DNA from: Phycisphaerales bacterium
GTDB lineage: Bacteria; Planctomycetota; Phycisphaerae; Phycisphaerales; UBA1924
Direction of reading: 5' to 3'
Length of the DNA: 64,000 bases
Assembly (NCBI GenBank): GCA_028289195.1
Contig: JANQQR010000009.1
Coordinates: 1 to 64,000, forward strand
The translations under genes and the position numbers were made by a program. This document shows positions 22,104 to 24,194 of the stretch, in pieces (position 1 is the stretch's first letter; the number at the start of each line of letters is the position of its first letter). The notes beneath the pieces were generated by a model. The model made no database searches. It saw only the letters and a program-made list of their open reading frames with translations, and had not been told where the DNA came from.

Positions 22104-22613
22104 CTAGAGCTTCTCGACGTCTGTGGGCCGGTTCCGCTCGAGCGATCCAGGCTCCATGTAGAACCCCTGGCCCGTGTGCACGAGCTTCCCTTCCTGCTCC
22201 AGCGCGACCCAGATCGCGCGGGGGAACTCGCCCGGGGGCATGATGGCGTCGATCGACGATGCCCTCCCGGAGCTGAGTCGTTTCCCGCGGAGTTTGGATT
22301 CGTCTTCGAGGCGCATGAGTTTCACCCGCTTGCGGAAGGCCCGCATCGCCTCGCTGAGCTGGTCCTTGGAGAAGCTCTCGGCGCTGACAGGCTCGGGCTC
22401 CGGCTCGGCCTCGGGGTTCTCCAGGCGCGTGACGATGTCGTCGAGCCCGGTGATGTCTTTCGCTTCGACGACGCGCTGCAGGCGCTCGGCGTCGACGCCG
22501 GGCATGCGGGCTCCCAGGCGTCCGGCCAGGCCCCAGTTGTCGAGGATCTTCATCGGGTCCTTCGGATCGCGCAGCTCGTCAACGATCGATCGCAGCTTCT
22601 GCAGAGCGTTCAT
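22104..22613 (-). CDS. protein of unknown function, helical with possible winged-helix C-terminus
   Basis: 169 residues, no signal peptide. The N-terminal 60 residues are helical (MNALQKLRSIVDELRDP), the middle is a Glu/Pro linker (PEAEPEPEPV), and the C-terminal part contains basic helices and a hairpin ending LEQEGKLVHTGQGFYMEPG that recalls the wing of a winged-helix domain. Its start is 30 nt after the stop of the candidate selenoprotein gene, and a TATCCT hexamer at 22621-22626 sits 7 nt before the ATG, so it probably has its own leaderless promoter. No family recognised. Confidence 0.65.
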   Translation of the reverse strand: MNALQKLRSIVDELRDPKDPMKILDNWGLAGRLGARMPGVDAERLQRVVEAKDITGLDDIVTRLENPEAEPEPEPVSAESFSKDQLSEAMRAFRKRVKLMRLEDESKLRGKRLSSGRASSIDAIMPPGEFPRAIWVALEQEGKLVHTGQGFYMEPGSLERNRPTDVEKL

Positions 22614-22643: not shown

Positions 22644-23171
22644 CTAGCGGAGCTCTTCGATCAGGCGCACCAGGCCCTCGCGATCGCTGTCTCTCGTGAC
22701 GGCGGTCATCTTCTTGTGGGCGATGTTGCCGTTCTTGTCGACGACGACCAGCGTCGGGAATCCCCGGACGCCGTAGTCGACCGCGATCGCGCTCCCCTTT
22801 TCGACGACTGGGATTGTGATGTCCTTGTCGTCGAGCAGGGCCTGGGCGCTCTCGAACTTCGTGCCGTAGTTGTCGCTGCCGTGGACGAGGATCAGCTCGA
22901 CGTCGTCCATGGCCGAGACCTGGTCGTGGAGCTCCTGCAACTGCGGGAGCGAGGCGACGCAGGGCGCTCACCAGTTGGCGTAGAAATCGATCAGGATCAC
23001 CGAGCCGCGCTTGTCGGCGAGGTCGAACGACTCGCCCGCCGACGTCGTCGCGCTCATGGCGGGAGCCGCCGTGCCCAGCGGCGGGCCGGACTGTGGCGTC
23101 GACGAGCAGGCGCCGGCGAGCATCACGGCGCCGGCGCCGATCAGTGCGAGACAGAGTGTTCGGATCGTCAT
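22644..23171 (-). CDS. thioredoxin-like (TlpA/ResA-type) lipoprotein, candidate selenoprotein with UxxC active site
   Basis: Read with TGA (22970-22968) as selenocysteine, this is one 175-residue protein. Residues 1-22 are a lipoprotein-like signal (VMLAGAC, Cys22). Then come the redoxin start PLGTAAPAMSATT, the strand SVILIDFYANW, the active site U68-A-P-C71, and the rest of the fold: ELILVHGSDNYG, the cis-Pro loop VRGFPTLVVVDKNG and a final helix. Known relatives have WCxPC here, so TGA replaces exactly the nucleophilic Cys. The frame stays open and conserved in character on both sides, which argues against a pseudogene. If TGA is a stop, the product would be a useless 67-residue fragment. 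A SECIS-like hairpin follows the TGA. No sel genes are in the window. Confidence 0.72.
22931..22950 (-). promoter_or_regulatory. SECIS-like hairpin downstream of in-frame TGA
   Basis: In the mRNA the stem GCTCC / GGAGC starts 18 nt after the TGA, with an inner GC/GC pair after one C-A mismatch and a 4-nt apical loop AGTT. The loop G lies 27 nt after the TGA. Bacterial SECIS elements typically place a loop with an early G about 16-37 nt after the codon, to bind SelB. Confidence 0.5.
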
Positions 23172-23233
23172 CGTCAGGAATCTCCTGGATGCGAGCGCCG
23201 CCTTCGCGCCAGCACCGAGCGCAGTCTACAGCC

Positions 23234-23995
23234 TCAATCGCCCTTGCGGGCCGCGCGCGCGACGCGCCCGTTCTGGTGCACCTCGATCGCGACGCACCGC
23301 TCGCCTTCCATGATCGGGCGGACGATGACCTGCGGCGCGGGCGTCGGGCGCAGGTCGCCGTTGGCCTGCAGACGCAGATCGAGCAGCGGCTGGCCCTCGA
23401 CCTGGATGGTCAGGCGCCCTTCCTCGGTGTGCGTCATGGTCGCGTCGCGCCCGAGCTCGGCGATGTGGTAGACGCCCACCATCACGGCCGCGAAGCCGTC
23501 CTCGATCGGCAGGTCGTCGAGCTCGGCGAGCATCTTGTCCCGGCGCATCACGCGCAGCGGGAACTGGGTCGCGTTGTGGCCGTCGCGCTGGATCTGCCCG
23601 AGGGCTTCGAGCGCCTCCGTCGCGCCCGAGCGATCGCCGCTCAGGATGGCGAGTTCGAGGGTCGCCGATGCGCCGAGCGCCTCGGCCAGGCCGCGTCGGA
23701 TCGCCGCTTGGGATTCCTCGATCGGTTGCTCGAGGTCGCCGAGGTCCGCCGGCATCGGCGCGCTCTTGGCCTCAACGAGCCCGGCCTGGAGCGCGTGCAG
23801 GGGCTCGAGGGCATCGGCGAGGTCGGCGTCCTCAGATCCGATGATGCCCCGCAGTTCGCCGAGGCGTTGCTGCATCTCGCCCATGATCTGGGCCATCATG
23901 GATCTCTCGGGCGCGGCCTGGGCTCGCGCGAACGGGCAGGCAATGGCGACGACCGCGCTCAAAGCGAGCGCGACGATCACGGCGTTTCTGTGCAT
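23234..23995 (-). CDS. secreted protein of unknown function
   Basis: 253 residues with a signal peptide (MHRNAVIVALALSAVVAIACPFARAQA). GAGAGG lies 5 nt before ATG 23995. The first half is helical and Met/Gln/Glu-rich (MMAQIMGEMQQRLGELRGI), probably a coiled coil; the second half is beta-rich, ending with VIVRPIMEGERCVAIEVHQNGR. No domain is recognised. It lies 62 bp upstream of the candidate selenoprotein on the same strand, so the two could be co-transcribed, with this one first. Confidence 0.7.
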   Translation of the reverse strand: MHRNAVIVALALSAVVAIACPFARAQAAPERSMMAQIMGEMQQRLGELRGIIGSEDADLADALEPLHALQAGLVEAKSAPMPADLGDLEQPIEESQAAIRRGLAEALGASATLELAILSGDRSGATEALEALGQIQRDGHNATQFPLRVMRRDKMLAELDDLPIEDGFAAVMVGVYHIAELGRDATMTHTEEGRLTIQVEGQPLLDLRLQANGDLRPTPAPQVIVRPIMEGERCVAIEVHQNGRVARAARKGD

Positions 23996-24194
23996 GGTTC
24001 CTCTCCCGAGGTGGGGGTGGGGGGCGCTGTGGCGCATACCCGCGTCCGGATGAGATGTTTCGCGGCTTCGAACTCCCGGTTCCCTAGCGGCGAACAGGCA
24101 CCGCGTGCGGGCGCGTGAAGCTGGAATCACCATGCTCGCGATGCCCCTCGAACCCACACCGCGACCGGGGCGTCACGGGCCGGTACGCCCGGGC

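Follow-up and report, generated by a model that had tools for sequence, protein, structure and literature searches.

A minus-strand gene in the window (the whole stretch of DNA that was analysed, 64,000 nucleotides long) very probably encodes an exported, probably lipid-anchored TlpA/ResA-like oxidoreductase with selenocysteine (Sec) as its first active-site residue. We strongly infer Sec insertion at codon 68, an in-frame TGA, from the gene, its homologues and its genome. The first-pass annotation of this DNA had proposed that the organism reads this TGA as Sec, and the proposal is supported by the Sec machinery of the genome, the Sec/Cys pairing among homologues and a hairpin apex common to the UGA genes; these features, a SECIS-like hairpin in the window gene, and the frame and fold of its protein, were demonstrated computationally. 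The positions of all features are collected in the table.

Reading frame and fold of the window protein

Translation gave a single frame that runs for 175 residues to a TAG and, as the first-pass annotation had described, is interrupted only by the TGA. The GC content at codon positions 1, 2 and 3 was 0.58, 0.61 and 0.90 upstream of the TGA and 0.67, 0.34 and 0.94 downstream of it, and given third-position values of 0.90 and 0.94 in a window with an overall GC of 68%, both halves look coding. Past the TGA come 107 more open codons, which preserve the cis-Pro and the second Cys and contain no further lesion. The downstream half, whose possible degradation had been raised earlier as an argument against the Sec reading, is not degraded (GC3 0.94), and the frame runs on through the later thioredoxin elements, including the cis-Pro, as had been claimed, with Pro139 in an invariant column.

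The read-through protein matched the Pfam families Redoxin (5.8e-17), AhpC-TSA (9.9e-16) and Thioredoxin_8 (2.6e-14), all well above cut-offs and with matches that span the TGA. Its AlphaFold2 model had a pLDDT of 91.3, and the best PDB matches to the predicted structure were ResA (4nmu), a DsbE-like protein (3gl3) and the lipoprotein Etrx2 (4hqz). When 30 homologues were aligned, residue 68 fell in an invariant Cys column, Cys71 was the second invariant Cys and Pro139 the invariant cis-Pro, in agreement with the earlier placement of the TGA at the nucleophilic Cys of a TlpA/ResA WCxxC motif; in W-U-APC the TGA occupies the place that the first catalytic Cys has in a thioredoxin fold of TlpA/ResA type. 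The protein accordingly combines a domain match, a thioredoxin fold, UxxC in place of CxxC and a cis-Pro, the features of a TlpA/ResA-like thioredoxin. It scored below the cut-offs of the NCBIfam models for ResA sensu stricto (NF002854; 62.8 bits, cut-off 170), DsbE (43.7 bits, cut-off 123) and NF041054 (WAxxUGC_long; 36.1 bits, cut-off 300), and did not reach the cut-off of any other NCBIfam model. A lipid anchor is plausible, judging from the lipobox LAGA/C22, which was read by eye. The flanking genes (23234-24157 and 22104-22613, both on the minus strand) match no family of NCBIfam or Pfam above its cut-off, the former giving a weak Cytochrom_B562 match, and the neighbourhood therefore gives no hint of the substrate.

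Table. Features of the window gene (window positions) and further UGA genes of the same genome (contig positions).
Feature	Position	Strand	Basis
Predicted selenoprotein CDS, 175 aa, ATG start, TAG stop, TGA at codon 68	22644..23171	minus	translation; Sec predicted
TGA codon, predicted Sec68, opening the U-A-P-C active site	22968..22970	minus	translation and homologue alignment
Cys71, predicted resolving Cys of UxxC	22959..22961	minus	invariant alignment column
Pro139, cis-Pro of thioredoxin fold (G-F-P-T)	22755..22757	minus	invariant alignment column; strand 140-144 next in model
Predicted signal peptide, lipobox-like LAGA/C22	23106..23171	minus	by eye from translation
AGGAG, possible ribosome-binding site, 10 nt before ATG	23182..23186	minus	sequence
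SECIS-like hairpin, loop AGUU, 7 bp and one mismatch	22931..22950	minus	sequence, recoding test, UGA-gene comparison
Paralogue of window gene, AVF-U-APC, probable lipoprotein (LIG/C)	C11:287323-287781	minus	AhpC-TSA match
AhpC-TSA UGA gene, RGVW-U-PYC	C11:330461 (L151:1462-1902)	plus	AhpC-TSA match
AhpC-TSA UGA gene, AFW-U-PYC	C18:138139 (L152:2140-2496)	minus	AhpC-TSA match
Deiodinase-like UGA gene, GCLT-U-PPF	C18:141410-141802 (L152:5411-5803)	minus	Pfam T4_deiodinase and AhpC-TSA over cut-off

Selenocysteine machinery and SECIS-like hairpin

The search for Sec machinery suggested in the first-pass annotation found selA, selB, selD and tRNA-Sec(UCA) all present in the genome. The three protein genes scored above curated cut-offs and form one cluster with the tRNA-Sec (anticodon UCA, 69.6 bits; ARAGORN concurs) on contig C18, the complete Sec operon sitting on a contig other than the window's. 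The selD gene itself carries an in-frame UGA (CAG-U-AGK). TGA is also an ordinary stop in this genome, ending the neighbouring genes, selB and selD.

The hairpin, described earlier as having a 4-nt loop with an early G and lying 18-37 nt after the TGA, was found exactly so. As DNA it reads GCTCCCGC-AGTT-GCAGGAGC (7 bp and one C/A mismatch, nt +18 to +37 after the TGA) and as RNA GCUCCCGC-AGUU-GCAGGAGC, with its onset 18 nt past the UGA. The position directly after the UGA, the small apical loop and the early G agree with published bacterial SECIS elements and the SECIS definition (PMC1088965). When the window gene was recoded synonymously 4,000 times, 0.35% of the versions matched the hairpin score with an RGUY loop and 3.2% with any early-G loop. 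All 11 UGA genes tested had a 5-8 bp hairpin with an [A/G]GU[U/C] apex and the loop 19-34 nt after the UGA, under a rule whose loop-length tolerance was set after the sequences had been seen; the RGUY motif had been chosen on the first 13 genes, and three own-genome genes found later fit it. By comparison, the RGUY-hairpin rule was satisfied at 2.4% of the window's TGA triplets, and an RGUY-apex hairpin occurred in none of 28 Cys homologues. The window gene, selD and the genome's remaining UGA genes share this apex. Less favourable to the SECIS reading are the one mismatch in the window hairpin and its loop position, 25 nt after the UGA compared with 31-34 nt in most of the other genes tested. 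Within the PHERSLV group the hairpin falls in a conserved peptide, and its members are therefore not independent of one another.

Bacterial decoding of UGA as Sec proceeds through SelB, which together with Sec-tRNA binds a hairpin in the message. In the window gene, SelB-GTP with Sec-tRNA(UCA) would recognise the hairpin just after the UGA and deliver Sec instead of termination, placing W-U-A-P-C at the start of helix alpha-1. Once exported, the protein would attack disulfides or oxidised substrates through the selenolate (U68), and Cys71 would resolve the mixed bond formed by Sec68, with a DsbD-type membrane protein as plausible reductant; a DsbD_TM protein is encoded at C24:110231. Lipidation and the proposed reductant and substrates are all plausible at this level of analysis.

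UGA codons among homologues and within the genome

Homologues were compared across 61 genomes (the own genome and 60 relatives), and the counts refer throughout to the matches listed. Besides the window gene, 11 listed homologues, ten of them outside the own genome and one within it, carried a single TGA, which in 11 of 11 replaces the first Cys of C-x-P-C, and neither TAA nor TAG occurred inside the frame among the matches listed from the 61 genomes. A selB above cut-off was present in 11 of the 61 genomes, and these included all those with a TGA homologue: among the matches listed, 8 of the 11 selB-positive genomes had a TGA homologue compared with 0 of the 50 others, and homologues in selB-negative genomes had no stop. 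With the own genome excluded, 7 of 7 genomes with a listed TGA homologue were selB-positive (naive probability 3e-7, a value that overstates independence since one family accounts for six of the seven). The codon comparison proposed in the first-pass annotation thus came out, among the matches listed, as TGC or TGT in the Cys homologues inspected and TGA only together with selB; the UGA lies in frame where homologues have Cys, with the flanks conserved on both sides. Two further genomes of the same family (G008:C352 and G027:C75) combine a full-score selB with no TGA among the thioredoxin-type matches listed for them, and must either have other selenoproteins or have theirs on contigs that are missing.

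The comparison with 251 genomes of the order listed about 150 matches, reaching down to about 3e-15, and the only TGA-bearing ones among them were the own genome's two. No close orthologue of the window gene was found among the matches listed from the 60 relatives and the 251 genomes, the best relatives listed being 36-38% identical and having Cys, and the window gene's own TGA is therefore not conserved in a second species. A scan of named genomes returned only remote thioredoxins from other groups, and a plasmid tblastn only remote TlpA/DsbE relatives. The Cys homologue L029 of a sister genome (WCGPCRASSPNVQILHDQF) is closely like the UGA paralogue of the own genome (F-U-APCRASSPNVQVLHETF).

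The genome has 21 AhpC-TSA matches, five of which, including the window gene, contain one in-frame TGA each, and in the four others the UGA likewise falls at the active-site position; with selD, the genome has at least six UGA genes. The RGVW-U-PYC and AFW-U-PYC genes have a perfect 7-bp hairpin with a GGUU apex after the UGA, while the GCLT-U-PPF gene, which adjoins tRNA-Sec, has its deiodinase-like selenoprotein domain within a long exported-looking protein. A WUxPC DNA pattern scan of the genome gave eight hits, seven of which were set aside as chance (short frames with no thioredoxin likeness, 0 of 7 reaching the hairpin threshold).

Alternative explanations and known relatives

If the gene were an ordinary TlpA gene of the Cys type, an error of sequencing or assembly, or a recent nonsense mutation, would need only a single base change from TGC to TGA, and this particular TGA has no confirming close orthologue. 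However, the change must have struck a Cys codon that is also UGA in ten homologues of other selB-positive genomes, with UGA at that position in four more genes of this genome, and must have done so just ahead of a SECIS-like hairpin, while selB-negative homologues among the matches listed have no stop. Since 11 further genes, all from selB-positive genomes, have UGA at this site too, we reject this explanation, leaving it a very slight chance. Slighter still is that of a decaying pseudogene with a 3' half that has ceased to be translated, which would fit a stop codon inside the frame but not the 107 further open codons with a GC3 of 0.94, the intact cis-Pro and second Cys and the lack of any other lesion.

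We give an equally minute probability to a variant code with TGA as Trp, or to unspecific read-through. The frame is open whatever residue the TGA encodes, but Trp would produce WWAPC, with the invariant Cys gone, and is rejected because TGA normally terminates the neighbouring genes, selB and selD. The Sec machinery might also decode the UGA yet mostly insert Cys (thiophosphate taking the place of selenophosphate), making the working protein a Cys enzyme; Cys insertion at Sec codons occurs in some organisms and the homologues work with Cys at this position, but the presence of all of selD, selA, selB and tRNA-Sec favours Sec as the residue normally inserted, and we consider this no more probable than the variant code.

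A Sec-containing, TlpA/ResA-like window protein has catalogued counterparts. UxxC selenoproteins of the Prx-like and thiol-disulfide isomerase-like kinds were reported in surveys of 2005 and 2006 (PMC1088965, PMC1794560), and a review of 2026 tabulates UxxC selenoproteins under PF08534 ('Redoxin family protein'), cd02966 ('Thiol-disulfide isomerase-like protein') and PF00578 ('Prx-like thiol:disulfide oxidoreductase') (PMC13188914). The earlier statement that Sec replaces Cys in UxxC redox proteins elsewhere is borne out by these three sources, and because redoxin/TlpA UxxC selenoproteins are already catalogued, the window protein adds to a known type. Likened by family and motif only, it has the same domain families and a predicted Sec at the first Cys of UxxC; it differs in being short and probably lipid-anchored, and in that no close orthologue turned up in the genomes searched. 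The extracytoplasmic thioredoxins ResA, TlpA and CcmG (DsbE) have the same fold, active-site and cis-Pro position, whereas the window protein has a predicted Sec for the first Cys and falls below the ResA and DsbE NCBIfam cut-offs. NF041054 (ResA-like WAxxUGC motif-containing protein) is likewise a ResA-like selenoprotein family, but with the Sec motif UGC in a longer protein, in contrast to the shorter UxxC protein of the window. Only tentatively, and with the balance somewhat against it, may the gene represent a UxxC selenoprotein subfamily that is lipid-anchored, restricted to one lineage and previously undescribed there, belonging to an extracytoplasmic selenium-based thiol-redox set of this bacterial family, in which one genome has five thioredoxin-fold UGA genes, including a deiodinase-like one.

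Standard gene callers would stop the protein at residue 67 or give a 98-residue second-half fragment starting from TTG, and the redox protein is therefore lost in annotation. The case leaves the picture of Sec decoding unchanged. It provides a clean collection of Sec and Cys forms with which to ask when Sec takes the place of Cys, and it shows a bacterial lineage that uses Sec in several redox proteins, some of them apparently exported.
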